64,000 nt of DNA from Gemmatimonadota bacterium. Its GTDB lineage: Bacteria > Gemmatimonadota > Gemmatimonadetes > Gemmatimonadales > Gemmatimonadaceae. Both the position numbers and the translations under genes were made by a program. Shown here in pieces: positions 4,104 to 64,000 of this stretch (position 1 is the stretch's first letter; the number at the start of each line of letters is the position of its first letter). The DNA is taken from NCBI GenBank assembly GCA_003223455.1, contig QHVE01000011.1, positions 101,413 to 165,412 of the forward strand, read 5' to 3'. Below the pieces are notes generated by a model that did no database searches, was not told the DNA's origin, and was given only the letters and a program-made list of their open reading frames with translations.

Positions 4104-5588
4104 ATGCGCATCCTGACGTTCGCCGCGCTCGCCCTGATCGCCGTTGCGCCACTCGCGCAGGCGCAGAACACGACGGCGCGCTCCTCAGCCGGTTCTCTGC
4201 TCACGCTCGACGACGCAATCAATCTCGCGCGGCGGAACAACCCGGTCTATCTCTCGCAGAGCACCAATCGCCGGACCGCCGACGCGGCAGTGCGCTCCGC
4301 ACGTGGCGCGCTCCTGCCGAGCGCGGACGCCTCCTTCGGCACGCGCTACCAGCAGGGCGGCCAGCAGGTGTTCAACGGTCTCTCATTCAGCAACAGCTCG
4401 GACGTGGTACAGTCCAGCTATGGGCTGAACCTCAACTACCGCGTCAACAGTGCGACGTTCGTGAACCCGAAGGCCGCCGTGGCGAACCGCGATGCCGTCG
4501 ATGCCGACATCAGCGGCTCGAGCGAGCAGCTCCGTGCGGCGGTGACGCAGCAGTACCTGAGCGTGCTGCAGGCGCAGGCGCGTGCCGCGCTGCAGGACTC
4601 ACTCGTGAAGACGGCTGACGCTCAGCTCGAGCTGGCGAAGGCCAAGCTCGCGGTGGGTATGGGGACGACGCTCGACATCCGGCGTGCCGAGGTGGCGCTC
4701 GGCCAGGCGCAGGTCGCGCTGCTCACGGCGCGCAACAACGTCGAAGTCGAGAAGCTCCGTCTGTTCCAGCAGCTCGGAGTCACGCAGCCCACCGACGTGC
4801 AGCTCACCACCGACTTTCCGGTGAATCCCCCGACCTTCGCGCTGGACTCGGTGCTCGAGCTGGCGCGCCGCCAGAATCCGGCAGTCCTCGCGCTGCGCTC
4901 GCGCGAGCGGGCCGCCACGCTGAACGTGAAGGTGGCCAGAGCCGAGTACACGCCGACGCTCAGCCTGAGCACGGGCTGGGGTGGCAACTCCTACCAGTAC
5001 ACCAACGCGGAGTATCTCGTCGAGCAGGCGCGCGGCGGCGTGATGGGTCAGCTGGCGTCGTGCCTGTCGCAGGATTCCCTCCGCACCGCCGTCGGACTGT
5101 CCTCGGCCAACTGCAACAGCCGGTACGTCTTCACCGACGCACAGGCGGCGTCGATCCGGGCGAACAACAGTCAGTTCCCGTTCCGGTTCCAGCGCTCGCC
5201 GCTGGCGCTCACGGCTTCGATCTCCATGCCCGTGTTCGACAACTTCAATCGTGAGGAGCGCGTCCAGCGCGCCTCGGTCGAGCGCGAGGCGGCGGCCTAC
5301 AACGTCCGGGCGAAGGATCTCGCGCTGACAGCCGACGTGACGCAGGCGTATCTCACCGTCAAGACGGCGGCGCAGACCGTTGCCCTGCAGGAGCAGAACG
5401 CCCGGAAGGCGACGGAGGAGCTGACGTTCGCCGAGGAGCGGTACAAGGTCGGGGCGAGCACCTTCCTCGACGTCGTGACGTCGCGCGGCACGTACGAGCA
5501 GGCGATGATCGACCGCGTCAACGCGATCTACGACTATCACAAGGCCTTCGCCGCGCTCGAGAACGCGGTCGGGCGTCCCCTCCGCTAA
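4104..5588 (+). CDS. TolC-family outer-membrane efflux channel
   Basis: This 494-residue protein has a signal peptide (hydrophobic residues 3-18, likely cleavage after AQA at 18-20) followed by two repeated alpha-helical/beta-barrel halves typical of outer-membrane efflux proteins, with the usual GxxxFLDVVTSRG-type heptads near the C-terminus. It would form the trimeric exit duct of a tripartite exporter. A region at about residues 310-350 carries two cysteines (ASCLSQDS and SANCNS) within a loop that looks inserted relative to typical TolC proteins; they might form a disulfide in the barrel loop. It is the first gene of a seven-gene operon: the adaptor starts 18 bp after the stop. Confidence 0.9.
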   Translation: MRILTFAALALIAVAPLAQAQNTTARSSAGSLLTLDDAINLARRNNPVYLSQSTNRRTADAAVRSARGALLPSADASFGTRYQQGGQQVFNGLSFSNSSDVVQSSYGLNLNYRVNSATFVNPKAAVANRDAVDADISGSSEQLRAAVTQQYLSVLQAQARAALQDSLVKTADAQLELAKAKLAVGMGTTLDIRRAEVALGQAQVALLTARNNVEVEKLRLFQQLGVTQPTDVQLTTDFPVNPPTFALDSVLELARRQNPAVLALRSRERAATLNVKVARAEYTPTLSLSTGWGGNSYQYTNAEYLVEQARGGVMGQLASCLSQDSLRTAVGLSSANCNSRYVFTDAQAASIRANNSQFPFRFQRSPLALTASISMPVFDNFNREERVQRASVEREAAAYNVRAKDLALTADVTQAYLTVKTAAQTVALQEQNARKATEELTFAEERYKVGASTFLDVVTSRGTYEQAMIDRVNAIYDYHKAFAALENAVGRPLR

Positions 5589-5606: not shown

Positions 5607-6890
5607 ATGAGCAAGCGCGTGAAGTGGTCCGTGGCCGGCGGGGTCGTCCTCGTCGTGGTCCTGATCGGCGGGTTGACCGCCGCGAAAGGCAAGAACAAGG
5701 CGGTGGAAGTGCGCACCGAGCAGGTGCAGCCGCGCGACCTCGTCGCGTCGGTGACCGCGAGCGGACAGGTGCGGCCGCAGACCAAGGTCGATCTCAGCTC
5801 CGACATCACGGGCAAGATCGTCAAGCTGGCGGTGAAGGAAGGCCAGATGGTCACCCAGGGTCAGTTCCTGCTGCAGATCGATCCGCAGCAGCAGGAGGCC
5901 GCCGTGCAGCGCTTCGAGGCCGCGCTGGCCTCGAGCCGCGCGCAGATGGCGCAGGCCCAGGCGAACCTGATGCAGGCCCAGAAGAGCTACGAGCGCACGG
6001 CGCAGATCAAGAAGGCCAACCCGCAGCTCATCTCCGACGAGAACCTCGAGCAGCTCCGCACGGCCGTGGACGTGAACGAAGCGCTGTATCAGTCGGCGCG
6101 CCACTCGGTCGACCAGTCGAGCGCCGCGGTGCGCGACGCGCGCAGCTCGCTCGGTAAGACGACGATCTACGCGCCGATGTCCGGCCGAGTGACGCGCCTG
6201 AACGTCGAGAACGGCGAGACGGCGATCATGGGCACGCTGAACAAGGATGCCGCCACGCTGCTCACCATCGCCGACATGAGCGTGCTCGAGACGAAGGTGA
6301 AGGTCGATGAGACCGACGTCGCGCGCATCTCGCTCGGCGACTCGGCGGTGATCCAGATCGACGCCTTCCCTGACACGACGTTCATCGGCCGCGTGACCAA
6401 GATCTCGAACAGTGCCGTGAAGACGGCGGCCCAGCAGCAGTCGAACGCCGATCAGGCGGTTGACTACGAAGTGACGATCCAGCTGCTGAACACCCCGACC
6501 GAGACGCGTCCCGACTTCTCGGCGACGGCGAAGATCATCACCGATTCGCGCCGCAACGTGCTGTCGATCCCGATCATCGCGCTGACCGTTCGCGAGAACG
6601 AGGCGCTGGTGAAGGAGGACACCGCCGTCGGCCTCGGCAAGCCGAAGCCGAAGAAGGAGGTTGGGAAGAAGGACGTCGAGGGGGTGTTCGTCGTCGCGGC
6701 GGACAACAAAGTCACCTTCCGGCCCGTAAAGGTAGGGATCGCCGGCGAGAAGCATTTCGAGGTGCTGAATGGCCTCAAGAAGGGAGACCGCATCGTTGCC
6801 GGCACCTATCAGGCGATCCGCGAGCTCAAGGACGGCGCGCTGATCCGCGAGGCGAAGGTCGACACCAAGAAGCCACAGGCCAAAACGTGA
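5607..6890 (+). CDS. Periplasmic adaptor (membrane-fusion protein, MacA/HlyD type)
   Basis: The protein is 427 residues. An N-terminal anchor helix (residues 8-26) is followed by a split lipoyl domain (from about residue 50), a coiled-coil hairpin rich in Ala/Gln (about 90-190), a beta-barrel and a membrane-proximal domain ending near residue 415. These are the parts of an RND/ABC efflux adaptor that links the inner-membrane transporter to the TolC channel. A Lys-rich insertion ([15 protein letters not shown]) lies in the membrane-proximal domain. It is located between the channel and ATPase genes, and its stop overlaps the ATPase start by 4 nt (GTGA), indicating coupled translation. Confidence 0.92.
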
Positions 6891-10281: not shown

Positions 10282-11520
10282 ATGCCCTTCCACGAGGCCA
10301 TCTGGCTCGCGCTTCAGCAGATTCGTGTCCAGAAGCTCAAGAGCTTCTTCACTCTGCTCGGCGTGATGATCGGCGTCATGTTCCTCATCGCCGTCGTCTC
10401 CATCGTGACGGGGATGAGCAAGTACGTCGAAGAGGACTTCGCGGGCCGCGTGCTCGGCGCGAACACCTTCACCCTCCGCCGCTTTCCCTGGTTCGGCAAC
10501 AACGTCACCGAGGAGATGTGGCGGGAGTGGCAGCGGCGACCGCGGGTGTACCACAGCGACGTCGCCGTCATTCGTGAGGCGCTGCCCGCGGGGACGAACT
10601 ACGCCGTCGAGAGCCAGGAGAACCTGCAGGCCACCAGCAAGTACGCCCGGGCGCGGCAGCTCGAGGCGCACGCCGTTGAGGGCGACTACTTCACCATCAA
10701 GAAGCTCGACCTGAAGGACGGACGCGTCTTCTCTCAGCAGGAGCAGGAGCTCGGCGCGCCGATCGTCGTGATCGGCGACGAGATCGCGAGCTACTACTTC
10801 GAGGGACTCAATCCGATCGGCCGCGAGCTGCGCATCGGCGGGATTCCCTACACGGTCATCGGCGTCATCGAGCATCAGGGAAGCCTGTTCGGCCAGTCGA
10901 TGGATGCCACGGCGTACGCGCCGTTCGGCTCCCCCCTGCACCGGCTGACCAATCCACGCGGCGACATCGACGGGCTGATGGTCCAGGCCCCGAACGCCGT
11001 GATGATGGACGAGGCGATGGAGGTGACGCGCGAGGTGATGCGCGGGATGCGGCACCTTCGGCCCGGCACCCCGGACAACTTCGTCATGGAGACGTCGGAG
11101 ACCGCGCTCGCTTCCTTCCAGAAGACGAAGCAGGTGATGACGATCGCGGGCACCGCGCTGCCGGCGATCAGCCTCGTGGTCGGCGGGCTCGTGATCATGA
11201 ACATCATGCTGGTCGCCGTCGCCGAACGCACACGGGAGATCGGCGTGCGCAAATCGCTCGGCGCGCGGCGCAAGGATATCCTCCGCCAGTTCCTCGTCGA
11301 GAGCGCCACGTTGAGCACCCTCGGCGCGATGCTCGGGATCGCGCTCGGCTTGCTGGGCGCCAAGATCATCTCGTGGACCACGCCGCTCCCCGCCGCCGTC
11401 GCCCCGTGGTCGCTGGTGGTCGCGACGCTGCTCGGCACGGTGGTCGGCATCACGTCGGGCGTGTACCCGGCGCGCCGCGCCGCCCGCCTCGACCCCATCG
11501 ACGCGCTGCGGGCAGAGTGA
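10282..11520 (+). CDS. FtsX/MacB-type ABC permease, type A, copy 2
   Basis: This 412-residue protein is a paralogue of the permease at 7709-8953: same N-terminal helix sequence, a similar periplasmic core (with YFTIKKLDLKDGRVFS versus YFDVKKMAPVSGRLFS) and an almost identical C-terminal AERTREIGVRKSLGARRKD block. The periplasmic domains have diverged more than the membrane parts, which points to different partners or substrates. A 68-bp gap separates it from the first permease pair, so a separate promoter or processing site could lie there. Confidence 0.93.
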   Translation: MPFHEAIWLALQQIRVQKLKSFFTLLGVMIGVMFLIAVVSIVTGMSKYVEEDFAGRVLGANTFTLRRFPWFGNNVTEEMWREWQRRPRVYHSDVAVIREALPAGTNYAVESQENLQATSKYARARQLEAHAVEGDYFTIKKLDLKDGRVFSQQEQELGAPIVVIGDEIASYYFEGLNPIGRELRIGGIPYTVIGVIEHQGSLFGQSMDATAYAPFGSPLHRLTNPRGDIDGLMVQAPNAVMMDEAMEVTREVMRGMRHLRPGTPDNFVMETSETALASFQKTKQVMTIAGTALPAISLVVGGLVIMNIMLVAVAERTREIGVRKSLGARRKDILRQFLVESATLSTLGAMLGIALGLLGAKIISWTTPLPAAVAPWSLVVATLLGTVVGITSGVYPARRAARLDPIDALRAE

Positions 11521-11522
11521 CG

Positions 11523-12782
11523 ATGCGAATCCTCACCTCGGCAAGCCAGGCGTTCGAGGGAGTCGGCATCGCCTTCGACGCGCTCCGCTCCAACAAGGTC
11601 CGCGCCGCGCTCACGATCATGGGCGTCGCGCTGGGCGTGTTCGTCGTCGTCGCGATGTCGTCGGTCGTGAAAGGCATCAACGAATCGTTCCGTCGTGATC
11701 TCGAGGCATCGGGACCGACGTCGTTCTTCATCTATCGTCGTCCGATCGGCGGATTCACGCGGCCACCCGAGTGGACGCGCAACAATCCCGGGATCACGCT
11801 CGACGAGGTGCGCATGCTCGAGCGCATCCCGACCATTCGCGCCGTCACGGCGCACGTCGGGATGGGCGCCGGGTTCCGCTACAAGGACAAGTACATCCCC
11901 CGTGCGGGGATGGAGGTCTACACGCCGAACTGGGTCGACGTCGACGGCGGCGACATCTATCCCGGGCGGAACTTCAACTACGCGGAGAACGCCAAGGGCG
12001 CGAAGGTCGCGCTCGTCAACGACAAGCTCGCCGCGCAGCTGTTCGGCGAGTCCGAGCCGCTCGACAAGATCATCAAGATCGACAACGTCGACTTCCAGGT
12101 GATCGGTCTGTATCACTACACGGCCAGTCCGATGGGGACACCGACGTCTGGCGGTCAGGGCGACTCGCCGAAGGCGATCATCCCGTACGAGACGGGCAAG
12201 CGCCACCTCGACATGTGGCTCCGCGGCACGGACCTGATCGTGAAGCCGCGCGCCGGCGTGACGACGCAGGAAGCCGTCGACGACGTGACCGCCGCACTGC
12301 GCGGCTACCGCGCGCTCCGGCCCAGCCAGCCGAACAATTTCGAGATCGTCACGCAGGATCGCCTCTGGTCGATCTACACGAAGCTGTTCGGCACCTTTTT
12401 CGTCGTCGGGCTCGCGCTGTCCTCGGTCGGCCTGCTCGTCGGCGGCGTCGGCGTGGTCGCGATCATGATGATCTCGGTCACGGAGCGCACACGCGAGATC
12501 GGCGTGCGCAAGGCGCTCGGCGCAACGCGCTGGACGATCCTCTGGCAGTTCCTCGTCGAGGCCGTGACGCTCACCGGCATCGGCGCCTCGGTCGGCCTCG
12601 CGCTGGGCATCGGTGTGGCGATCGGCGTGCGGACCGCATGGCCCGCCGTTCCCGCCACGACGTCGTGGAGCACGGTCGCCGCCGCGCTCGGCATCAGTGC
12701 AGTGACAGGCATCCTTTTCGGCATGCTGCCGGCGATCAAGGCGGCTCGGCTCGATCCGGTGGTGGCGTTGCGGTACGAGTAG
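11523..12782 (+). CDS. FtsX/MacB-type ABC permease, type B, copy 2
   Basis: This 419-residue protein is a paralogue of the permease at 8957-10213, sharing DALRSNKVRAALTIMGVALG at the N-terminus, the DGGDIYPGRNF periplasmic block and the SVTERTREIGVRKALGATRW block. The ATG lies 2 bp after the preceding stop. A longer in-frame extension upstream would lie inside the preceding gene and is not credible. With its neighbour it completes the A-B-A'-B' duplication. The operon ends here, followed by a strong hairpin. Confidence 0.93.
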   Translation: MRILTSASQAFEGVGIAFDALRSNKVRAALTIMGVALGVFVVVAMSSVVKGINESFRRDLEASGPTSFFIYRRPIGGFTRPPEWTRNNPGITLDEVRMLERIPTIRAVTAHVGMGAGFRYKDKYIPRAGMEVYTPNWVDVDGGDIYPGRNFNYAENAKGAKVALVNDKLAAQLFGESEPLDKIIKIDNVDFQVIGLYHYTASPMGTPTSGGQGDSPKAIIPYETGKRHLDMWLRGTDLIVKPRAGVTTQEAVDDVTAALRGYRALRPSQPNNFEIVTQDRLWSIYTKLFGTFFVVGLALSSVGLLVGGVGVVAIMMISVTERTREIGVRKALGATRWTILWQFLVEAVTLTGIGASVGLALGIGVAIGVRTAWPAVPATTSWSTVAAALGISAVTGILFGMLPAIKAARLDPVVALRYE

Positions 12783-53783: not shown

Positions 53784-54173
53784 ATGTCGATATCGAGCGA
53801 GGAGCGACGCCGGACCGAAGCGGCACTCGTGCGCGCGATCGACGTGAGCCCATACGTCGGCGCCGAGAGGACGCGCTCGGCAATCTGCGCCTATGTCGAC
53901 GTGCTCGCCGACGACGGGCTGCTACCGGAAGCGGTCGTCATCGCGCTCAAGTCGACGCTCAGCAGAGCTCACTCGCTCGATCGGCTCGAGCCGGACGCTC
54001 GCGAGGAGGCGCGCTCGGCGCTCGTGTCGGCGTGCATCCAACACTACTTCGCACGTCGAATACCGGACGACGTCCGGTTCACGAAGCCGCGAGCGCTGCG
54101 GTTGGTCAAGGATGAGCGGGACGCGAGCGTCGCGCCCGACCAGCGATCACGGCCAGCCAACCCGCCGCGGTAG
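53784..54173 (+). CDS. Hypothetical helical protein
   Basis: This 129-residue protein is charged and helical (SSEERRRTEAALVRAIDVSP; YVDVLADDGLLPEAVVIALK). No signal peptide or named domain is seen. Longer readings upstream lie in a region without coding character. The 3' end overlaps the convergent methyltransferase gene by 27 nt. A gap of 243 bp separates it from the VOC gene and holds nothing I can identify. Confidence 0.6.
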   Translation: MSISSEERRRTEAALVRAIDVSPYVGAERTRSAICAYVDVLADDGLLPEAVVIALKSTLSRAHSLDRLEPDAREEARSALVSACIQHYFARRIPDDVRFTKPRALRLVKDERDASVAPDQRSRPANPPR

Positions 54174-54650
54174 CCAGCGCGGTACGGCCGCTCGGTAGCG
54201 TTCGTACTCGTCGCCGAAGCGTGCGACGAGACCCGGCTCCTCGAGCAGCAGGAAGTAGCTGTGATTGATCGCCACGAAGAGCAGCAGCCAGCCACCGATC
54301 CTCGGGGAATGAAAAAAGAGCGCCTCGCCCGCGAGCATCGTACAGACGGCGGTGATCATCGGATTGCGGACGTGGCGATAGGGTCCCGCGACGACCAGTC
54401 GGCGCGTCGGGTCCCACGGCGCGAGCGTGCCGCGACCGACGCGCGCGAAGAGCAGCACACACCACACGAACAGCGCGAATCCCGCAACGAAGAAGAGCGC
54501 GCCGACGACATGTCCGGAGGCGACCAGCGCCGCGGGCAGCGCCGCGACCGTCAGCGCATCTCGGGCAACCAGTGCGCGTGGCACCAGCACAACGACCACG
54601 AACGGCAGGAGCGCGATCGACAGCAGATGTCGGATCAGCATCGTCGTCAT
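54147..54650 (-). CDS. Isoprenylcysteine carboxyl methyltransferase-family membrane protein
   Basis: This 167-residue protein has four hydrophobic helices and the ICMT/PEMT signature GPYRHVRNPMITAVCTMLAGE followed by EEPGLVARFGDEYERYRAAVPRWLP, which binds S-adenosylmethionine. The family methylates carboxyl groups or phospholipids. It starts 9 bp after the acyltransferase stop, so it is likely the last gene of the export-type operon; whether it acts on the exported product is unknown. Confidence 0.83.
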   Translation of the reverse strand: MTTMLIRHLLSIALLPFVVVVLVPRALVARDALTVAALPAALVASGHVVGALFFVAGFALFVWCVLLFARVGRGTLAPWDPTRRLVVAGPYRHVRNPMITAVCTMLAGEALFFHSPRIGGWLLLFVAINHSYFLLLEEPGLVARFGDEYERYRAAVPRWLPRRVGWP

Positions 54651-54658
54651 GCGCGCGT

Positions 54659-56665
54659 TCAGCGGTCGGCGAGTACCCACGCCCGGGCCGGTGCATCCAT
54701 CGCGGCGGCGATGCGCGCGCCAAGCGTCGGTCCGAGCGTCCGACTGAAGCTCGCGGTGAGATGGTTGTCGTCGGTGAAGACGATCGCTCCGTTCCGAACG
54801 ACCTGGCAGAGGGGTGCGTCGCACAGCTGATCGTTCATGTCTACGATGCGCACCGGCAGCCCGCGTGCGGCACGATCCTGGGCGGCCACCGCGACGCGGG
54901 ACACCGACGTCGCGCGGTCGTAGGTGCACGAGCGCGCGAGCAGGAGCTGCGCCGCGAGGCGAGACAGACATGCGGGAACATCGAATTGCGTGTGCGGCAC
55001 GTCACGCAGCACGATCGTACGGATGCCAGCCGCGGCGAGGCGCGCATACGTCCGGTGTAATCCGCGCTCCCACATCGAGGGCGAGACCTGCCAATCCTCC
55101 GATGCCCCGTCGGGTGGCATGTAGTGGTCCCAGCTCGAGAGCACGACGGCAGCCGGGCGCATGGCGACGATGCGCCGCAGCATCGCCTCGCGATAGCGCC
55201 CGCACTCGCGGTAGTAGCGCGCGAAGCGCTCGCTTCCGAGCTCCGTCATGTCGGCGACGGGGCAGCCTCCCTTCACCATGACGTCGATACGCCAGCCGTG
55301 CTCGCGCCCGGCGCGATCGAGGCCGCCGAGCCAATGCTCGGCGTGCGAGTCGCCGAGCAGCGCGATCGTGGTGGACGCGGTGCGATCGCCGAGCGTACAG
55401 GGCGTGCGCGCATCCTCGACGGTGTTGGCCCAGCACTGGTGACGCAGGCGATCGACGCGCGCCGCGGCGAACACTCGCTGCTCGGTGGTGGCGATCTGCT
55501 GCTCGGCGCGCCGCATGGCGGCGTGCGCGACCAGCGCCGCGACGACGCTCGCCGCGAGTGCCGCAGGCGCGATCCAGCGATCGGGGATTCGCGAGAACGC
55601 TCCACCACGCGCCGGCCGTTCGACGAAGCGGTAGGTGAGCCATCCCAGCACGAGCGCGAGCGCTGTCCACACGAGCCGCCCGCGCACGCCGATCGCCGGG
55701 TCGAGCACCTCGCCGAGTCCGACCAGCGGCCAGTGCCAGAGATACCACGCGTAGGACACGCTCCCCAGCCAGCGCAGCGGCTCGGCGCTGAGCGCGCGGG
55801 TGAGCGCGCCGTCGGCCGCTCGCGCGCCGCCAGCGATGAGCGCACAGGCGCCAAGCGCCGGGAGAAGCGCCGCCGACCCAGGATACGGCGTCGCGCGGTC
55901 GTAGGTCACGACGGCGATGCCGATCGCCGCGAGACCCAGTGCCTGCAGCAGAGTCGCTCCGCGAGCGCCGGCGCTGGCGTCGGATCCCTCGGTGAGGACG
56001 AGCGACAGGAGACCACCGAGCGCGAACTCCCAGATGCGCGTCGGCATGCCGAAGAAGGCCCATGGCTGCGCGGTGCTCGTCAGCGCGAGCGAGGCGGCGA
56101 GCGAGGCCAGACCAGCGACGGAGATGGCGATCGTGGCCGTACGGCGAGTCGCAGCGGGATCGGCGTCGTCGCGCTGAAGGATGGGCACGAAGACGACGAG
56201 CAGCAGGGGCCAGACGAGGTAGAACTGCTCCTCGACGGCGAGCGACCAGGTGTGGAGCAGCGGGTTGTCGCTCGAGCCGAAGTAGTTGAGCGCGCCGCGC
56301 GCGAACTCGACGTTGCCCGCATGGAGCGCGACGGCTCGCGCCGTGCCAGCGACGAGCGGCCGGTCGATCGGAGCATAGAGGGTGAAGACGATCGCCAGGG
56401 TGGCGAGGAGCACGACCAGCAGCGCTGGAAGGAGCCGGAGCGCGCGCCGACCGTAGAACTCGGCCAGGCTGACGTCGCCGGTCGCCTCGCGCTCGCGCAC
56501 GAGCAGCCCGGTGATGAAGAACCCGGACAGCACGAAGAACACGTCCACGCCGACGAAGCCGCCGGCGAGAGCGGGCGCGCGAGCGTGAAAGAGCACGACG
56601 AGAAGGATCGCGATACCACGCAATCCCTCGATGTCGGGACGGAAGGTCGGATGCTGGCCGGCCAT
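54659..56665 (-). CDS. Acyltransferase-3 fused to SGNH hydrolase domain
   Basis: This 668-residue protein has about ten to eleven membrane helices with acyltransferase-3 blocks (RPDIEGLRGIAILLVVLFHA, GVDVFFVLSGFFITG, TWSLAVEEQFYLVWP) and a C-terminal SGNH-type periplasmic domain with LLGDSHAEHW and FTDDNHLT as catalytic Ser/Asp-His motifs. Proteins of this layout O-acetylate cell-surface polysaccharide or peptide groups. It lies 72 bp after the M50 gene in the same direction. Confidence 0.92.
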   Translation of the reverse strand: MAGQHPTFRPDIEGLRGIAILLVVLFHARAPALAGGFVGVDVFFVLSGFFITGLLVREREATGDVSLAEFYGRRALRLLPALLVVLLATLAIVFTLYAPIDRPLVAGTARAVALHAGNVEFARGALNYFGSSDNPLLHTWSLAVEEQFYLVWPLLLVVFVPILQRDDADPAATRRTATIAISVAGLASLAASLALTSTAQPWAFFGMPTRIWEFALGGLLSLVLTEGSDASAGARGATLLQALGLAAIGIAVVTYDRATPYPGSAALLPALGACALIAGGARAADGALTRALSAEPLRWLGSVSYAWYLWHWPLVGLGEVLDPAIGVRGRLVWTALALVLGWLTYRFVERPARGGAFSRIPDRWIAPAALAASVVAALVAHAAMRRAEQQIATTEQRVFAAARVDRLRHQCWANTVEDARTPCTLGDRTASTTIALLGDSHAEHWLGGLDRAGREHGWRIDVMVKGGCPVADMTELGSERFARYYRECGRYREAMLRRIVAMRPAAVVLSSWDHYMPPDGASEDWQVSPSMWERGLHRTYARLAAAGIRTIVLRDVPHTQFDVPACLSRLAAQLLLARSCTYDRATSVSRVAVAAQDRAARGLPVRIVDMNDQLCDAPLCQVVRNGAIVFTDDNHLTASFSRTLGPTLGARIAAAMDAPARAWVLADR

Positions 56666-56737
56666 GCTCGGTCTACGGAGGCTCGGCTGACAAAGTTGCG
56701 GCGTCGCCAGCCACGCGCCGAGCGAAGACGTTGGCGG

Positions 56738-58794
56738 TCAGAGCAGCAGATCCGTGCGCAGCAACTGACGGGCGTTCCACCATAGCGCGCCGATGACGTT
56801 CGAACGCCTGAGCTCGACGCTCGCTTCACCGTGGGTGCCAGGCCGCCAGGCGTCGCCGGCTGCACGACGGACACGGGCCTCCACCTCCCCAGCCGCCCCG
56901 AGGCGCGCCACGCCGATGCTCGAGACCTCGCCGACTCGCGACGTCCACGGAGCGCCGGGATCGGCGAAGGAGATCGCGTGCACCACCAAACCCGGCTGCA
57001 CCCGAGTTGCACCGGCGCCGGCGAGCGCGATACGCAGCTCGACGGAGTCGACCGCCGCCAGCGTGAGCAGCGTGTCACTCGCAGACACTAGGCGCCCGAC
57101 GATCTCCTCGACGTGCGGAGTGGTGACGATGCCCGACGACGAGGCGCGGAGCACGAGATTCGAGGCGCGACGCTCGAGCCCCGCGAGCCTGGCCTCGGCC
57201 GCTGCTCGCTCGGCCGTCAAGCGGCTCGCGTCGCCACTGCGGCCGTTCGAGCGAGCCACCGATTCCTCGAGCGCGAGCGAGTCCACGGTGCGCGTGACCG
57301 TGAGGATACCGCGCTCGAGATCGTGATTCACGACGCGCAGCAGCGGTGCACCCGCATCGACGCGCGTTCCCTCGCGCACGAAGATCTGCGCGATGACACC
57401 CCGCTCCGCCGAGCTCACGACATGTGCGGCAACCGGTCCGACGACGAACGCGCCCGGGCTCGTGAGTGTCCACGGCACGAAGAGGAGAACGAGCGTCGCG
57501 AGCACCGCGGCGATACGCATTGGCCGGCGCATCCGGCGCATCGCGTCGCGACGAGCGCGCACGGCGAGCACGACGCCGCGGACCCCTCCCATGATCCGTC
57601 CGCGCAGCAGCACGGCGAGCACGAGGGACGTGATGATACCGCCGAAGACGCCGAACGCCTGCCGCGACCAGCCGACGACGAGCACGGCGACGAAACCGAG
57701 GAGCAGCGTCGTGTAGACCATCGACGCGGCACCGTAGATCAGAAAGACGCGTCGCTCACGCGATGTCGCCGGCGGCTCGGGGACCTCGAGCCGAAGCAGG
57801 TAGTGCTGCAGCCACCACCGGAAGTGCGCGACCGCCCGCAACCGGAGGTTGGGAATCTCCATCCAGTCGGTCAGGGCGAAGTAGCCATCGAGTGGTAGCA
57901 GCGGATTGGCGTTCGTGAGGATCGTGGACGCACCGCCGACGAGCATGGCGGCGACGGCGACGTTCGCCACGAGGGTGTTCGGCGCCGCCGCCCACCACAC
58001 GATGGCGGCGACACTGGCGACGACGAGCTGGATCCATCCGCCGGCGGCCGTGACCCAGAGTCGCGCGCGACGCTCCGGAAAGCTCCATGCATCGGAGACG
58101 TTGCAGTAAAACGCGGGCTGGAAGTAGATCAGCATGAATCCCAGCTCGCGCACCTCACCGCCAAAATACTTGCACGCGTAGCCGTGCCCGAGCTCGTGGA
58201 TGAGGATGACCGCTGCGCCCGTGACCCAGAGCACGACGACGTTCGCGACGGTGATCGTATGCAGCGAGTACGTGGACGCGAGCGCACTCTTGAACTCGTC
58301 CCACCGCCCGTGTAGACGACGAACACGGCGAGTGACACGAGCACGAAGGTCCGGCTGAACATCCAGTCGACGTAGGGAAGCGACCGCGTGAGCATCGCGT
58401 CCGGGTCGCCGAACGACCATCGCATCCGCAGCAGCTCGCCGCGAAAGAGCGCGGGTCGGCGCCGCTCGTGGCGCTCCGCGCGCAGGCGCTCGATCTGCAG
58501 GGTGGTGCGCTCCTCGAGCGCGCGCTCGAGGAAGCCCGCGTTCGCCATCGTGCGCGCGAAGCTCTCCACGGCCTGCGCCGAGATGCGCATGCCCTCTTCC
58601 GCCAGCGCGGCCGCGATCTCGCTCGGCGTGTGCTGGCCGTCGAAGGCACGGAGGACGCGCACTTCGGCCGCGCCGAAGCGGAGGTACTTCTGGGCGGCGG
58701 GATCCTTCACGACGAAGCTCGTCTCGCCGCGATAGACCTGCTGGATGATCGAGATGTCCGCGCGCAGACAGGGCGCACCGGGGCGGGCAGGCAT
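56738..58794 (-). CDS. PqqD-M50 peptidase-HlyD fusion protein, one frameshift
   Basis: This about 685-residue protein begins with a PqqD-like domain (ISIIQQVYRGETSFVVKDPA; about 15-95), then a membrane zinc protease of the M50/site-2 family with HELGHGYACK (HExxH, about 225) and NANPLLPLDGYFALTDW (the NPxxPLDG block supplying the third ligand), many membrane helices and a C-terminal HlyD-like adaptor domain (AERGVIAQIFVREGTRVDAG). A 1-nt deletion at the G-rich run near 58301-58310 shifts the frame between FVVYTGG and RWDEFKS. It starts 4 bp after the HlyD stop. Such proteins process or export ribosomal peptides (YydH-like). Confidence 0.85.
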
Positions 58795-58798
58795 GCGA

Positions 58799-59689
58799 TC
58801 AGTGCGGCGGCCGTGCGAGCCGCTCCCCCGACGTCAGGCCGCTCAGGATCTCCACTCGTCCGTTGCCGACGTCGCGACCGACGGTGACGGATCGGAGCGT
58901 GCTGCGGCCGTTGTCCACGACGACGGCGTAGCCGTCGGACGCGATTGCCGCGCGCGGCGCGGTGACGACGTGTCGCGGCTCGTGGCCGAGTCGAACGGTG
59001 ACGCTGCTTCCGGCGAGCAGCGCGCCACCCGGGCGCGCCACTGTCGAACCCGGTACCGGCGGAGATGCTGGACGAGTCGCCGACGCGGAGCTGGCGCGCC
59101 CCCACCTCGGGCACGCGCACGCGCGCGAACAGTGGAGACGGCTCGGTGACTCGGAAGAGGGTATCGCCCACCTCGACGAACCGACGCGGGCGGGCGAGCC
59201 GCGCCGTGACGACGCCGGCAAAGGGCGCAGTCACGCGCGTGAGCTCGACGTCGCGCTGCGCCTTTCGGCGCTGCACCTCGGCCTGTCGAAGCTGGAACTC
59301 GACCTGCTCGGAGTCGGCGGCAGTCGCGCCACCGCCCTTCTTGAGCAGGCGCGTGCGCGCCGCCGTCCGCGTCATGCTCTCGTACGCCGCATCGGCGCCG
59401 GCGAGCGCGATGGATTGGTCGGTGCTCTCGAGCCGGGCGAGGAGCTGGCCCGCGCTCACGCGATCGCCCAGCTCGGCGTAGAGGCCGTCGATCGTGCCGG
59501 CCGACCGGGCGACGACGACCGCGTCGTGCTCGACGTAGAGCTGCGCCGGCAGCTCCAGCGGGAGACGCACGGCGGGGAGCCGGCCTGCTGCGCCGTCGCC
59601 GAGCGCGCCTCACTGCCGCACGCCGCGGTAAACGCACAGACGCCGGCGACGGCAGCGCCAGAGAGCAGATAGTTCCAGTTGCTCGTCAT
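58799..59689 (-). CDS. HlyD-family lipoprotein adaptor with two compensating frameshifts
   Basis: Read with corrections, this about 296-residue protein has a lipoprotein signal (VCAFTAAC), a HlyD/membrane-fusion core (TIDGLYAELGDRVSAGQLLARLE, VTAPFAGVVTARL) and a C-terminal beta-barrel/capping part (VTAPRAAIASDGYAVVVDNG, VEILSGLTSGERL). One base is missing near 59571-59582 and one is extra near 59050-59065; the two indels cancel, so the ends are in the same frame. The start overlaps the GAF-HlyD stop (ATGA). It is followed 4 bp later by the M50 gene. Confidence 0.8.
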
Positions 59690-61560
59690 GACCAGAATCT
59701 CCACCAGGCGAGCCGGGTCGCACGCACAGGAGTGCGGAGGATCCGCCAGAGTGCCGATGCGGGCTCGGTGAGCACGCGCGCGTAGGCAGCCATCCCCGGA
59801 CGGAGCAGTCCGTCCGGGTTGGCAAATGCGGCGCGCACCGGGAACGACACCGGGCCGGTCGCTGACGCGGAAGTCGCGCCGATGGATGTGACGTGGCCCG
59901 TGAAGGTGTGCTGCGGTAGTGCGGCGATGCGCAAGCGCACCTCGTCCCCGACGCGCACGCGAGTGATGTCGCGCTCGTCGACGCCGAACTCCAGCTCGAG
60001 CGAATCGGTTCGGCCAACGACGGCCACGAGATCCCCCGCGTCGGCGTGCGAGCCGACCCGCTCTTCGGGGCGCGCCGTGAGAATCACGCCGCGAACCGGA
60101 GCGCGGACGAGGCTGGATCGGATCTGCTCGTCGAGCAGATCGGCGTCGCGCCGTAGGACGTCGACACGGAGCCGCTGGAGTCGTTCTTCGGCGGCATCAC
60201 CACGCGACGCGGCGACGGCCGCCGCGCGCTCCGCCCCGGCCACGGCGGCGAGCGATGCCTCGCGTTCCGCACGCCGTTCGTCGTCGCGCAGATGGGCGAC
60301 GGGCGCCCCGCGATCGACGAGCATCCCCTCACGCACGAACACGCGGTCGATGAGTCCGGGGAGCGTCGAGCGCACGTCGGCGCGCACGAGCGGGCGGAAC
60401 ACGGGCTCCACGCCCGCCACGCGCATCGGCCAGCGGACGAGCGTGAGCACAGCGAGCGCCACGATCGACGCACCGAGATAGGCGCGGCGACGCTGCGCAG
60501 GGAGGTCGAGCCATGCCGCCTTCCTCGCGCTGATCGCGCCGATGGCGCTCGCGAGCGGCACCTGGCGATAGAGCCGCGCATTCCGCACGGCGACGGTGCT
60601 CTGGTTGGCGAGGATCGCGGCGAGGTCGCGCTCGCGCGGCGTCGCGAAGTCGGGGCGCGACGCCTCGAACAGCAGGATCCCGACGATCCCCTCCTCGTCC
60701 TTGAGGGGGAGATACAAGCCGCTCATCGCACCGTCTCGCTCGAGGTCGTCGCCGAAGATCTGCACGAAGGTGCGTTCGGCGTCGGATCCCGGATCGGAGC
60801 GCTCGGAGAGGAAGAACGACTCGCCGACGCCGGCCGCCCAGGCGGCGCGAACGGCGAGGTCCTGAAGCGCCGTATCCTTCGCGTCGACGCCATCGGCGCC
60901 GGCAACGGCGCGGATGTCGCAGACCCCGTGCTCGTAGAGCGCGATGGCGCCGCGGTCGAATCTGAGGGCCTTGCTGGCGAGGTTCACGACCGTGCGCAGC
61001 ACCCGGTCGAGATCGAGGGTGGAGGTGATCTCGCGGCTCATCTCGGTGATGAGGGCGAGTTCCCGCGAGGTCTCGGCAACCGTACGCTCGCTCGCGGCGA
61101 GTCGGGTGGCGTTCGCCATCGCCACGCCCGCCGCCATGGTCAGGCGCCGCAGGGTGTCCTTCTCGGCGATCGCAAAGCCACCGTGGGTGGCGAAGGAGCG
61201 CGTGACGCGCACCACGGCGACCGTGCGTTCGGCGAGCACGATGGGCGCCACGGCGACCGCGACATCGACCTCGTGGGGGAGGGGCTGCTCTATCTCGTCG
61301 GCCGGCACCGCGAGTCCGGTCAATGCCTCGCGGCGGTCGCCGATGGCGCCCCGGCAGTGCAGCTGGCCGGCGCTCGGCACCCAGATGGACGTGCCCTCCA
61401 CCGGCAGGACCCGGCCAGCCGCGGCGAGGGCCTTTCCGGCGATGGCGCCAGCGTCGTCGGTTGTGAGGAGGTCGAGCGTCGCGTCGAGCAACGCGTCGGT
61501 CGCGGGGGCAACCGGGGAGGTGCCGAACGGCGGCGTCGCCGCGAGTGTGTTGGAATCCAC
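59686..61560 (-). CDS. GAF-GAF-HlyD adaptor protein
   Basis: This 624-residue protein begins with two GAF-type sensory domains (about 15-155 and about 170-320), a transmembrane helix (about 360-380, RRRAYLGASIVALAVLTLV) and a periplasmic HlyD-like adaptor (LPGLIDRVFVREGMLVDRGA; APVRGVILTARPEERVGSHA). GAF domains bind small ligands or sense redox state, so export could be gated from inside the cell. Fusion of GAF and HlyD modules occurs in other bacteria next to M50 peptidases, as here. It is 164 bp downstream of the second small-peptide gene. Confidence 0.88.
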   Translation of the reverse strand: MDSNTLAATPPFGTSPVAPATDALLDATLDLLTTDDAGAIAGKALAAAGRVLPVEGTSIWVPSAGQLHCRGAIGDRREALTGLAVPADEIEQPLPHEVDVAVAVAPIVLAERTVAVVRVTRSFATHGGFAIAEKDTLRRLTMAAGVAMANATRLAASERTVAETSRELALITEMSREITSTLDLDRVLRTVVNLASKALRFDRGAIALYEHGVCDIRAVAGADGVDAKDTALQDLAVRAAWAAGVGESFFLSERSDPGSDAERTFVQIFGDDLERDGAMSGLYLPLKDEEGIVGILLFEASRPDFATPRERDLAAILANQSTVAVRNARLYRQVPLASAIGAISARKAAWLDLPAQRRRAYLGASIVALAVLTLVRWPMRVAGVEPVFRPLVRADVRSTLPGLIDRVFVREGMLVDRGAPVAHLRDDERRAEREASLAAVAGAERAAAVAASRGDAAEERLQRLRVDVLRRDADLLDEQIRSSLVRAPVRGVILTARPEERVGSHADAGDLVAVVGRTDSLELEFGVDERDITRVRVGDEVRLRIAALPQHTFTGHVTSIGATSASATGPVSFPVRAAFANPDGLLRPGMAAYARVLTEPASALWRILRTPVRATRLAWWRFWS

Positions 61561-61661
61561 GCGTCCCTTCAGGAGCTTCGATCGCGGTGAGCGGCTAACG
61601 TGATCGGGGCCGCCGCGGATCGCAAGGTCAAAGCGAGATGGGAAATACGACGTCTGAACGC

Positions 61662-61701
61662 GATCGCGCCGCGTGAACCATATGGTTCACGCGGCGCGAT
61701 C
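61662..61701. terminator. 40-bp perfect palindrome between peptide gene and export genes
   Basis: A perfect 40-bp inverted repeat centred on CCATATGG (arms GATCGCGCCGCGTGAA and complement) lies 23 bp after the second peptide stop. In RNA it forms one uninterrupted stem, probably a partial terminator or mRNA stabiliser separating the precursor genes from the GAF-HlyD gene. Confidence 0.75.
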
Positions 61702-61724
61702 TGGGGAGGGGCCCTACAGGAGAA

Positions 61725-61877
61725 TCAGACGAAGACCTTAGGTGCGATGCGGGCTTCGAGCTCCTGGACCGTCAGCTCGATCGCATCGGCGCTCTTTTCG
61801 GTCGCGGCCTTCACCTGCTCCTTCTGTTCAGTCGTGAGGTCGATGCGGATGATATCCGTCGGCTTGCTATCAGACAT
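61725..61877 (-). CDS. Small peptide 2 of tandem pair (50 aa)
   Basis: This 50-residue protein begins MSDSKPTDIIRIDLTTEQKE and ends ARIAPKVFV. It shares RIDLTxEQKEQ(V/I)KAAT, AIELTVQELEARIAP with the gene at 62015-62173. It is predicted to be helical, hydrophilic and has no signal peptide. It has no cysteine. I infer that it is an exported or processed peptide, or a small accessory protein of the neighbouring export operon; it has no named family that I recognise. A TTCACG repeat and AATATT precede it. Confidence 0.8.
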   Translation of the reverse strand: MSDSKPTDIIRIDLTTEQKEQVKAATEKSADAIELTVQELEARIAPKVFV

Positions 61878-61926
61878 GGATACTCTCTGAGAGGAGGAAA
61901 CTGGGGGGGCGATGACTTCGCGGGTG

Positions 61927-61958
61927 AATATTTCGGGCGATCGTGAATACAGCGTGAA
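61927..61958 (-). promoter_or_regulatory. SARP-type operator and -10 of peptide gene 2
   Basis: On the minus strand TTCACGC (61952-61958) and TTCACGA (61941-61947) start 11 bp apart. Eight bases later lies AATATT (61927-61932). Direct heptamers with 11-bp periodicity and an 8-bp spacing to -10 are the known SARP binding layout. A further TTCACG copy lies 21 bp upstream (61974-61979). Confidence 0.7.
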
Positions 61959-62014
61959 AGCGGGGCAGTCCGACGTGAAATGCCAGTCACAATGCCAGGA
62001 CGATTGCCGAATGT

Positions 62015-62173
62015 TCACTCGTTGAGGAAGGGCGCGACAGGAGCGATCCGCGCCTCGAGCTCCTGGACCGTCAGCTCGATCGCTTCGGCGGTCCCTCCCG
62101 TGGCCGCCTTGATCTGCTCCTTCTGCTCGCTCGTGAGGTCGATGCGGACGATCTCTTTCTCGTTGTTGGACAT
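62015..62173 (-). CDS. Small peptide 1 of tandem pair (52 aa)
   Basis: This 52-residue protein begins MSNNEKEIVRIDLTSEQKEQ and ends ARIAPVAPFLNE. It is a close paralogue of the peptide at 61725-61877, with the most conserved part AIELTVQELEARIAP near the C-terminus; only the last residues vary. The ELTVQELEA block resembles leader-peptide motifs of some ribosomal peptides, leaving a very short variable tail. It has a Gly pair (ATGGTAEA) where its paralogue has Glu-Lys. It has no Cys or signal peptide. It lies divergent from the SARP regulator. Confidence 0.8.
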   Translation of the reverse strand: MSNNEKEIVRIDLTSEQKEQIKAATGGTAEAIELTVQELEARIAPVAPFLNE

Positions 62174-62214
62174 GGTGTGATCTCGGTAAGAGGGCGGCCG
62201 TTCATTCGCGCATC

Positions 62215-62246
62215 AGAATGCGGTGCCACCGTGAATCCAGCGTGAA
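62215..62246 (-). promoter_or_regulatory. SARP-type operator and -10 of peptide gene 1
   Basis: On the minus strand TTCACGC (62240-62246) and TTCACGG (62229-62235) start 11 bp apart, followed after 8 bases by CATTCT (62215-62220). The arrangement is the same as in front of peptide gene 2. Confidence 0.7.
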
Positions 62247-62304
62247 AACCCTTTCCGCGATCGTTAGTCGAGGGTAAGTTCGGCGCTCCCCCTGGACCGA
62301 GACG

Positions 62305-64000
62305 ATGCCGTCGCTGGTTCTCCGCCTGTGTGGCGAAGTGGCGCTCCAAGCCCCCGATGGGGTGCCCGTTGCGCCGCCGCTCGGCGCGAAGACGCTCGGG
62401 CTCCTGGCGTTCCTCGCACTGGAGCCAGGGTCGCGCCGGCGCGAAGAGCTGACCGCGCTGCTCTGGGGGGACTCGCCCGAGGAGAAGGCGCGCGCGTCGC
62501 TCCGGCAGGCGCTCAGTCATCTGCGGGAAGTCATCGGCGACGCCCTGCGCGTCGACCGGTCGACCGTGGAGCTCACGGGACAGCTCGAGTGTGACGCGAG
62601 AGAGTTCCTGCGGCTCGCGTCGGTTGACGGAGGCGCCGCGCTGGCGATCGACGTGCCAAGGTTTCTCACCGGCCTGTCGATTCGCAACTGCAAGGCATTC
62701 GAGGAGTGGGCAGACCGGAAGCGCGCAGAGCTGGCGACGCGGTTCGCCGGGCTCCTCGCGGCGCGCGCGCGCGAGGCGATGGCGCGTCGTGCCTGGTCCG
62801 ACGCTCGCCAGCTCGCCGAGCGCTGGCATCGGCTGGACGTCCTGGCCGACGAGCCGATCGCGGTACTCGTGGAGGCACAGTACCTCGGGGGCGATCGCTC
62901 GGGAGCGCTGGCAACGTACGGGCGGCACGTGGCGCGGCTCGCGAGCGACGTGGCGAGGCCTCCGGGCCGCGCGCTCACCGCCCTCGCAGCGCGCATCGAG
63001 CACAGCCCCGCGCCGCGGGCGACCAAACGCGCGAGCGAAAACTGGTACGAGCACGCTCCCTCGTTCGACGCGAGTCTGGTTGGTCGCGCGCGCGAGTGGG
63101 ACGCGCTGAAGCAGATCTGGGAAGGCATCGGGTCGGGCGACAGCCGCGTGGCTCTCATCGAGGGCGAGCCGGGAGTCGGAAAGACACGGCTCGCGGACGA
63201 CTTCCTCCGCTGGGTGACGTCGCGCGGCGGACTCGTGCTGCGGGGTCGCGGCTACAGTGCCCGGGGCAGTGCGCCGTTCGGGGCGATCATCGAAGCGCTG
63301 CGTGGCACACTCGACGCACCCGGCCTCGCGGGCGTGGATGGCGAGTGGCTCGCCGAGGTGGCGCGCGTGCTGCCCGAATTGCGGCGGCGGTTCTCTTCGC
63401 TGCCCGACGTCAACGCGAAGGCTCCGGCGGACGGCTGGCGGTTGTTCGAAGGCGTCGCACAGGTGCTGATGGCGCTGTCGGAGGATCGACCACTCGCGAT
63501 CATGATCGACGATCTGCAGTGGTGCGACGCCGACAGCTGTGGGCTGCTGCACTTCCTCGTGCGGCGGCTCGCCGACTCTCAGGTCCTCTGGTGCGCGACG
63601 TTCACGGTGGGCGAGGTGGAGCGCGACGCGCCCGCCGCCAGGCTCGGTCGCGCACTGCGCTCGATGCGCGGGGCGGCGCACGTGACGCTCGCGCCGCTGT
63701 CACCGGAGGACGTGTGGCAGCTGGTGCGCGAGCTCGGACGCGTCGACTCGCCGACGGCGGGGCAGCGGCTCGCGTCGCGCATCCACGAAGTCACGGCGGG
63801 CAATCCGTTCTACGTGATCGAGCTGCTGAAGACGCTGTTCGCGCAGGACATCCTGACCGTCGATCCGGAGACGAAGGCGTGGATCGTTTCACCGACGGCG
63901 GTGGAGAATGGTGGTTACAGCTACGCCCCGACCGTGCACGACGCGATCGCGGACCGAATCGAGTGTCTACCCGACGAGCTGCACGCGGTGCTGATCAGCA
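62305..64000 (+). CDS. SARP/BTAD-AAA transcriptional regulator, partial
   Basis: The visible 565 residues start with an OmpR-like winged-helix domain (LRLCGEVALQAPDG; about 5-95) and a BTAD helical domain (about 100-235), then an AAA/STAND ATPase with Walker A GEPGVGKT (287-294) and a Walker B-like LAIMIDDLQW. The gene runs past the window. SARP-type activators bind tandem repeats in front of biosynthetic genes. It starts 131 bp from and divergent to peptide gene 1. A TAAGTT hexamer (62274-62279) lies upstream. Confidence 0.88.
   Translation, partial: MPSLVLRLCGEVALQAPDGVPVAPPLGAKTLGLLAFLALEPGSRRREELTALLWGDSPEEKARASLRQALSHLREVIGDALRVDRSTVELTGQLECDAREFLRLASVDGGAALAIDVPRFLTGLSIRNCKAFEEWADRKRAELATRFAGLLAARAREAMARRAWSDARQLAERWHRLDVLADEPIAVLVEAQYLGGDRSGALATYGRHVARLASDVARPPGRALTALAARIEHSPAPRATKRASENWYEHAPSFDASLVGRAREWDALKQIWEGIGSGDSRVALIEGEPGVGKTRLADDFLRWVTSRGGLVLRGRGYSARGSAPFGAIIEALRGTLDAPGLAGVDGEWLAEVARVLPELRRRFSSLPDVNAKAPADGWRLFEGVAQVLMALSEDRPLAIMIDDLQWCDADSCGLLHFLVRRLADSQVLWCATFTVGEVERDAPAARLGRALRSMRGAAHVTLAPLSPEDVWQLVRELGRVDSPTAGQRLASRIHEVTAGNPFYVIELLKTLFAQDILTVDPETKAWIVSPTAVENGGYSYAPTVHDAIADRIECLPDELHAVLIS

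Follow-up and report, generated by a model that had tools for sequence, protein, structure and literature searches.

A candidate protease-adaptor cassette and its LExRIAP precursor-like peptides in Gemmatimonadota and other phyla

The stretch studied here (the window) comprises 64,000 nucleotides of a Gemmatimonadaceae genome (phylum Gemmatimonadota; GenBank assembly GCA_003223455.1, 4.96 Mb; contig QHVE01000011.1, positions 101,413 to 165,412), and its end is the end of the contig. Near that end lie two tandem genes for small proteins that, judged by their sequences, look like precursor peptides, followed on the same strand by genes for two HlyD-type adaptors and for a fusion protein joining a PqqD-like recognition element (RRE) of the kind found in pathways of ribosomally synthesized and post-translationally modified peptides (RiPPs), an M50 metalloprotease and a further HlyD adaptor. 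We propose that this RRE-M50-HlyD protein probably binds the leader of the small proteins, cuts after the proline of an ELExRIAP ending and passes the remaining tail outward. Small proteins with the LExRIAP ending adjoin the protease in genomes labelled as seven phyla, which is why we predict that the protease cuts at this ending. By analogy, the system is best read as a leader peptidase of the daptide type that carries its export adaptor as a fused domain and acts on apparently unmodified peptides. The genes of the window concerned are as follows.

62015..62173, minus strand: putative precursor peptide 1, 52 residues, leader ending ...IELTVQELEARIAP, tail VAPFLNE
61725..61877, minus strand: putative precursor peptide 2, 50 residues, leader of the same type, tail KVFV
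59686..61560, minus strand: GAF-HlyD, open frame; GAF 183-324, hydrophobic segment 366-384, HlyD adaptor 394-592
58799..59689, minus strand: HlyD/RND-type adaptor with a lipobox-like start; frame-broken in this assembly, open in relatives
56738..58794, minus strand: PqqD(RRE)-M50(HExxH)-HlyD fusion; frame break near 58310 in this assembly
62305..64000, plus strand: divergent SARP(BTAD)-AAA_16 regulator, cut by the contig end; conserved neighbour in relatives
54659..56665, minus strand: AT3 acyltransferase-SGNH, a neighbour judged not to be part of the system
~54147..54650, minus strand: PEMT/ICMT-like methyltransferase, a neighbour judged not to be part of the system

The small-peptide family and its protease in Gemmatimonadota

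The two small proteins stand as a first-pass annotation of the window had described them, tandem minus-strand paralogues of 52 and 50 residues; they are 67% identical to each other, have in common a conserved leader with ELEARIAP at its end, and differ in their tails of 7 and 4 residues. Neither contains a hydrophobic segment and thus neither has a Sec-type signal. They matched no Pfam family at E<=0.01, and NCBIfam returned nothing beyond E 0.096 for them and nothing beyond E 0.067 for ten precursors from other loci. A stable precursor fold was rejected, as the AlphaFold model was poor (predicted local distance difference test, pLDDT, 67.7) and held two short helices.

A search of 5.8 billion proteins returned 427 homologues of the window small protein at E<=0.01, which speaks against a chance ORF; 120 of these were listed, and the four listed homologues that carry an organism name are all Gemmatimonadaceae. 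Our sequence counts use 121 sequences, the best matches of one query. Counted without forced alignment, LE.RIAP is present in 120 of the 121. With the rows aligned on this pattern, which fixes its own letters, leader positions from -36 mostly hold less than 1 bit of entropy (the exceptions are -31, -27, -18 and -16), and the positions after the proline vary (1.2-3.2 bits). Tails such as VAPFLNE, IALME, FAPIVSDE and KVFV measure 3-9 residues in 119 of 120 sequences, with one tail of 17, and end in Glu or Asp in 80 of 120. This is the pattern of RiPP-type precursors: a conserved leader, a variable core and often several paralogues per locus. The earlier view of the small proteins as precursors of a peptide pathway is thus upheld by the family, by its boundary between leader and tail, and by its co-occurrence with the GAF-HlyD and M50-HlyD genes.

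This co-occurrence, which the first-pass annotation had proposed as a check, is strong. Within the same family, 7 of 118 genomes contain strong peptide matches (E<1e-10), and exactly these 7 contain the protease (E<=1e-20; Fisher 1.9e-11); among 395 genomes of the phylum the peptide (E<=1e-8) occurs in 30, the protease in 36 and both in 26 (Fisher 1.8e-28). Both sets are samples from larger groups, the Fisher values ignore shared ancestry, and the peptide cutoffs were set after viewing the match lists. The 36 are protease matches that reach into the RRE-M50 part; with matches to the HlyD part only, the count is 40. At a peptide cutoff of E<=0.01 the positive genomes number 9 of 118 and 36 of 395, and 7 and 27 of them carry the protease, the 27th being G257, in which the peptide match is cut by the contig edge. 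The two further weak matches in the family (G017 and G044) lie next to kinases in genomes without the protease; they keep the start of the leader and lack the LExRIAP end. G332, which has the peptide and no protease match, carries the variant LEERTMP together with GAF-HlyD and HlyD, and its contig ends at that point. Conversely, a different LE.R[IV].P peptide adjoins the protease in G189, G278, G376 and G386, and G175 and G401, with protease and no peptide match, end at a contig edge. Some members of this leader family, seen in L174, L175 and L196 (G262) and in L038 and L040 (G095), have NHNET in their tails; they lie inside the cassette in L038 and away from it elsewhere.

The fusion protein has the marks of all three of its parts. 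The hallmarks of M50/site-2 metalloproteases are HExxH and NPxxxxDG, which appear in the window copy as HELGH and NPLLPLDGY; in 38 aligned relatives H233, E234 and H237 of HExxH and P331, D336 and G337 are invariant, and N330 is kept in at least 90%. The NCBIfam daptide protease model (daptide_HExxH) matched all 38 and the NCBIfam YydH/LiaK model matched all 38 more weakly, PF05402 (PqqD) matched 11 at E<=0.1 (best 5.1e-6), and Pfam HlyD_3 matched 37 at E<=0.1. The protein has 7 hydrophobic segments. In the predicted structure of the intact relative P0136 (pLDDT 86.4; predicted template modelling score, pTM, 0.66) a domain of three strands and three helices at 44-114, the arrangement of RRE domains, is followed by the membrane protease and then by the adaptor. 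The RRE-M50 fusion is thus found by the structural model, PF05402 and daptide_HExxH together, the RRE fold being read from the predicted model and not from solved structures. The adaptor part has the barrel-sandwich and hairpin of the HlyD/RND adaptor fold and is MacA/MexA-like; the best match among solved structures is MacA (3fpp, Foldseek E 2.8e-13), and all 50 Foldseek matches listed, like those of a profile search of solved chains, fall in this part only. The PqqD, M50 and HlyD domains named in the first-pass annotation are all present in the window, but in this assembly PqqD and M50 are not in frame with each other.

The commonest gene order runs from a divergent SARP-AAA gene through one to three peptide genes, GAF-HlyD and HlyD to PqqD-M50-HlyD. 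It was seen in six family relatives (11 of 13 stretches) and in most of 39 further stretches from the phylum. The cassettes of G028, G036 and G095 are split over contigs; the peptide gene lies on the far side of the protease in G127, G150, G268 and G280, and beyond the SARP gene in G210. The divergent SARP-AAA regulator of the first-pass annotation was confirmed, SARP(BTAD)-AAA starting at 62305 on the plus strand, and so was GAF-HlyD, with a single GAF domain seen by Pfam in place of the two that had been claimed. When script-called genes of at least 70 residues around the cassettes of 30 Gemmatimonadota genomes were clustered, the adaptors and the protease recurred in 29 and SARP-AAA in 26, together with the peptides. 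The sole other family in more than 4 of the 30 consists of Ser/Thr kinases and kinase-linked open reading frames (ORFs), found in 13, one member of which was confirmed by Pfam. No tailoring enzyme recurs among these clusters, which were not followed by a model-based search and cover Gemmatimonadota only; tailoring enzymes may accompany the protease in other phyla, where four flanking genes were scanned with Pfam. The first-pass annotation had seen no radical SAM enzyme, LanM or ABC ATPase; in agreement, neither of the first two recurs in the 30 genomes, and an ABC ATPase-like ORF occurs in the loci of only 3 of them. Outer-membrane factors are encoded elsewhere in the genome in all 16 genomes tested.

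The protease and its peptides in other phyla

Starting from the protease, we used four intact proteases to scan 84,980 species, each represented by one genome, and took the best 80 of 198 loci. In 20 of these 80 loci small ORFs with LE.RIAP precede the protease on its own strand by at most 6.5 kb (34 matches), and a single match lies elsewhere in the 80; 719 permutations of the motif letters gave a mean of 0.02 loci and a maximum of 2. Less than 1.5 kb of upstream sequence is present in 12 of the 80. By record title the 20 loci belong to Gemmatimonadota (8), Acidobacteriota (6), Nitrospirota (2) and, with one locus each, Bacteroidota, Planctomycetota, Rokubacteria and Verrucomicrobiota. Since some loci of this named collection are on the same contigs as loci with G handles (e.g. 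L051 and G115:C25), the two locus sets are not independent.

On a protease tree of 74 of the 80 rows, the presence of the peptide requires 5 changes vs 17.9 in shuffles. The tree holds one Gemmatimonadota clade, one clade of mixed phyla, and one 40-row, largely planctomycete clade without the peptide. The planctomycete loci (L063-L068, L074-L075, L111-L112 and others) have no LExRIAP nearby, other peptide motifs not having been sought. L095, a locus of the mixed clade with no nearby peptide, comes from a genome in which small ORFs with LEERIAP are found elsewhere, and in 17 genomes the coded motif gave 54 matches vs 4 for the pattern read backwards.

Peptides of types other than that of the window mostly have a short leader (M...L.VEELEERIAP) and a long tail, which reaches about 60 residues and is often rich in Gly and Asn. 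A search with one long-tailed precursor returned 218 proteins at E<=1; the core GNPGNEVSNG recurs, with variations, in all 120 listed, and LE.RIAP in 118 of these 120. At least six conserved Gly/Asn-rich core families, often several in tandem, were observed behind LExRIAP in records of different phyla (L060, L077, L101, L207, L221, L222 and L227), for example SGFGPSNNGNPGNEVSNG, NPGNNNPPLNNTNNPGNEGTGG, GALHNNPDNPNNNN and TVTGTGGYDGQPGNQS. These recurring families may reflect the exchange of whole peptide sets between phyla.

A further type adjoins the GAF-HlyD/M50 cassette of the Blastocatellia locus L056, where a convergent ORF beside the protease (11059-11577) begins like these leaders (KEVTITLTEDQRRQVKAATGKDI) and continues with RANP boxes, much as multi-core precursors do. 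Forty acidobacterial relatives (P0257-P0296) contain 4-13 RxNP boxes, with spacers of 4-10 residues in nearly every case, and most of them finish in short tails (MVIEE, TKIE) similar to those of Gemmatimonadota. Our guess is that the RANP boxes mark cut sites. Precomputed Pfam labels on 10 of the 40 (PF12277 on nine, PF01442 on one) are taken for low-complexity matches. Among 147 genomes of the class of L056 the protease was found in 2 and the precursor in 1 of those; in the other, the protease is cut by the contig end.

Known systems, proposed mechanism and alternatives

In daptide pathways (PMC10036551) an RRE is fused to a site-2 protease (MpaP), the leader of the MpaA precursors ends in ELExMEAP and is cut after the proline, and the RRE domains are proposed to dock a leader segment. 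The cassette resembles them in its fusion of an RRE to an intramembrane M50 protease, in its several small precursors per locus and in the spacing of ELExRIAP, in which E(-8), L(-7), E(-6), A(-2) and P(-1) coincide with ELExMEAP. In 70 motif windows, where L, E and P are fixed by the search pattern, E(-8) is found in 62, A(-2) in 60 and P(-5), as in MpaA, in four. Unlike ELExMEAP, the box has other residues at -4 and -3; the invariant C-terminal Thr of daptides ends 3 of 120 tails; no daptide-type ABC family recurs in the Gemmatimonadota loci; the protease has a fused HlyD domain, and scores, where known, below the daptide cutoff; and GAF-HlyD and a second HlyD are added. The oxidative decarboxylase, aminotransferase and methyltransferase of daptides are not among the recurrent clusters of the 30 Gemmatimonadota genomes, again with no model search for them. 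On sequence comparison the system would work like a daptide leader and peptidase, but it is not a daptide: the C-terminal Thr, MEAP and the tailoring genes were each looked for and did not turn up as in daptides.

The first-pass annotation had compared the protease with YydH. For EpeP, the M50 protease of the epipeptides (EpeX/EpeP; YydH/LiaK), both cleavage and export have indeed been proposed (PMC10885120), and the weak model match extends to all 38 relatives. YydH was nevertheless rejected as the nearest relative, since the daptide protease model fits far better (E 2.7e-60 vs 1.7e-11 for P0136), as does the spacing of the leader motif. The cassette protease also differs in its HlyD fusion, and the radical SAM epimerase of YydF/EpeX pathways is not among the recurrent clusters of the 30 genomes, with no model search made for it. 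The HlyD fusion would fit an EpeP-like double role in a cell with two membranes. The adaptor fold is shared with tripartite efflux and type I secretion systems (MacA, MexA, HlyD), with the difference that in the cassette it is joined to a protease and has no recurrent ABC, RND or MFS partner. No paper on the ELExRIAP motif was found in the open literature searched, and to that extent the statement that no named system has this gene set stands; the logic of leader and protease is nonetheless that of daptides.

We envisage that the PqqD/RRE domain would dock the ELExRIAP segment, as proposed for the daptide RRE, and that cleavage would follow P(-1), as daptide precedent and the boundary between leader and tail suggest. 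The tail, mostly of 4-9 residues here and of up to about 60 elsewhere, would then leave through the fused HlyD tube, the exit path possibly being completed by the other HlyD protein, a lipoprotein, and by an outer-membrane factor of the TolC type acting in trans. GAF-HlyD may tune export from a cytoplasmic signal, and the divergent SARP-AAA protein may control expression. Since Gemmatimonadota have no recurrent tailoring gene, the model can do without any modification of the tail. That the tails of this phylum are short and hydrophobic, with Glu or Asp at the end of two thirds of them, suggests that they act as signals or in a pheromone-like manner. A wider claim, which we offer tentatively and lean somewhat against, is that one polypeptide recognises ELExRIAP, cuts after Pro and conducts the unmodified tail, and so constitutes a new secretion route in at least seven phyla, serving 4-residue signals in Gemmatimonadota, multi-core RANP precursors in Acidobacteriota, and Gly/Asn-rich peptides in Acidobacteriota, Bacteroidota, Planctomycetota, Nitrospirota, Rokubacteria and Verrucomicrobiota.

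Several observations weigh against cleavage and export by the fusion protein, above all the lack of an energy source and the shortness of the tails. In the cassettes of the 30 genomes neither an ATPase nor an outer-membrane factor is recurrent, the ABC ATPase-like ORF of three apart, which leaves the energy source of export unexplained. With only 4-8 residues a tail would make a very small product, and the acidic end is missing from all 21 tails of four residues. M50/site-2 proteases usually act near membranes, and the precursors look soluble. The daptide model scores under its cutoff of 300 in the cases for which bit scores are given, namely the window piece (171.2) and four intact relatives (178.8-204.5). 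G198, G270 and G317 have the protease and no peptide nearby by motif or profile; with the peptide and no protease seen are G149, where the variant ends in ELEMKLAP, G339, with peptide and SARP only, and G235, where the contig ends inside GAF-HlyD. LE.RIAP is missing upstream in 60 of the 80 protease loci, above all in the largely planctomycete clade, and the phyla represented by one locus are each represented by one binned contig. Finally, the protease of the window itself is frame-broken.

The last point could mean that the locus is decayed or misassembled, so that the system no longer works in this genome whatever relatives do; this is compatible with cleavage and export elsewhere, and we think it somewhat unlikely. 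The breaks number three and fall in two adjacent genes at 56.7-59.7 kb: the PqqD and M50 parts of the protease are in different frames, with the break near 58310, and the HlyD lipoprotein gene, which has a lipobox-like start but is in pieces in this assembly, is broken near 59575 and at 59020-59050. The neighbouring genes are open, both precursors, GAF-HlyD and the regulator being open and conserved, and so are the matching genes of those relatives that were read. The breaks are due either to assembly error or to decay, and single-base assembly errors would give the same picture.

Other readings concern the function of the peptides. The small proteins might be regulators that bind PqqD, remain uncut and control the gating of a tripartite efflux pump (GAF-HlyD, HlyD and M50-HlyD) for another substrate. 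The leader is conserved beyond the needs of a mere signal (most of about 36 positions below 1 bit, in a set picked by one query), tails go down to 3-4 residues, and three adaptors resemble an efflux system. We nevertheless consider this unlikely: no RND, MFS or ABC pump gene occurs in more than 3 of the 30 genomes' loci, other phyla keep only the end of the leader in front of tails of up to about 60 residues, and acidobacterial precursors repeat a boundary-like box. A different thought is that ELExRIAP is a general secretion tag, opening a one-protein route to many unmodified proteins and peptides, among which the present ones would be the smallest, with the Gly/Asn-rich tails being structural or matrix material. 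This would extend cleavage and export by the fusion protein and does not exclude it; the conserved Gly/Asn-rich cores in records of different phyla and the orphan precursors away from the cassette (G262, G095) agree with it. It remains doubtful, as the motif matches examined in 30 loci (of the 54 matches in 17 genomes) are mostly small ORFs, and five large ORFs with the motif (133-574 residues) lack a leader-like context and may be chance frames. Very improbable, in our estimate, is a pearlin-like scaffold, in which amino acids would be added at the C-terminus of the peptide and the M50 protease would trim off the product for the scaffold to be reused. The membrane M50 proteases TglG and TmoG act in this way on a small scaffold peptide, at its C-terminus (PMC10885120); here too the scaffold is highly conserved, and many tails end in Glu. 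Unlike pearlins, cassette peptides in other phyla have encoded tails of up to about 60 residues. The LanB-type ligase family PF04738 had no match in 16 genomes, but the control genomes gave none either, and its absence is therefore not shown.

RiPP mining mostly seeks tailoring enzymes, and since none recurs in the Gemmatimonadota cassette, such searches are expected to miss it. Public data contain hundreds of its precursors, with 427 of one type (E<=0.01) and 218 of another (E<=1), and the ELExRIAP box together with the protease-adaptor fusion can serve as a simple key for searches and allows the ends of the mature peptides to be predicted directly. If export by the fusion protein is confirmed, recognition of the leader would be combined with cleavage and transport in a single protein, as has been suggested for EpeP; the cores recurring across phyla would then form a new class of secreted peptides, and the short tails of Gemmatimonadota might be signals.

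Genes around the cassettes

The first-pass annotation had included the acyltransferase and the ICMT-like methyltransferase in the system. Both genes are present on the minus strand, as described, but do not travel with the cassette and were rejected as members: AT3-SGNH had no match in three sets of 13, 80 and 39 loci, and ICMT had a distant match about 7 kb from the protease only in L114/L164, which are the same contig. A defence system was likewise rejected, PADLOC giving no match for 6 proteins. Small kinase-like ORFs of about 270-300 residues directly adjoin five cassettes (L181, L162, L157, L182 and L186), and kinase-like ORFs also lie beside orphan or divergent peptides in L040, L044 and L045. 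Far from the cassette, the window contains an outer-membrane factor gene (PF02321) at 4842-5573 with HlyD-like matches just after it, at 5772-6794, which together look like a separate efflux operon.

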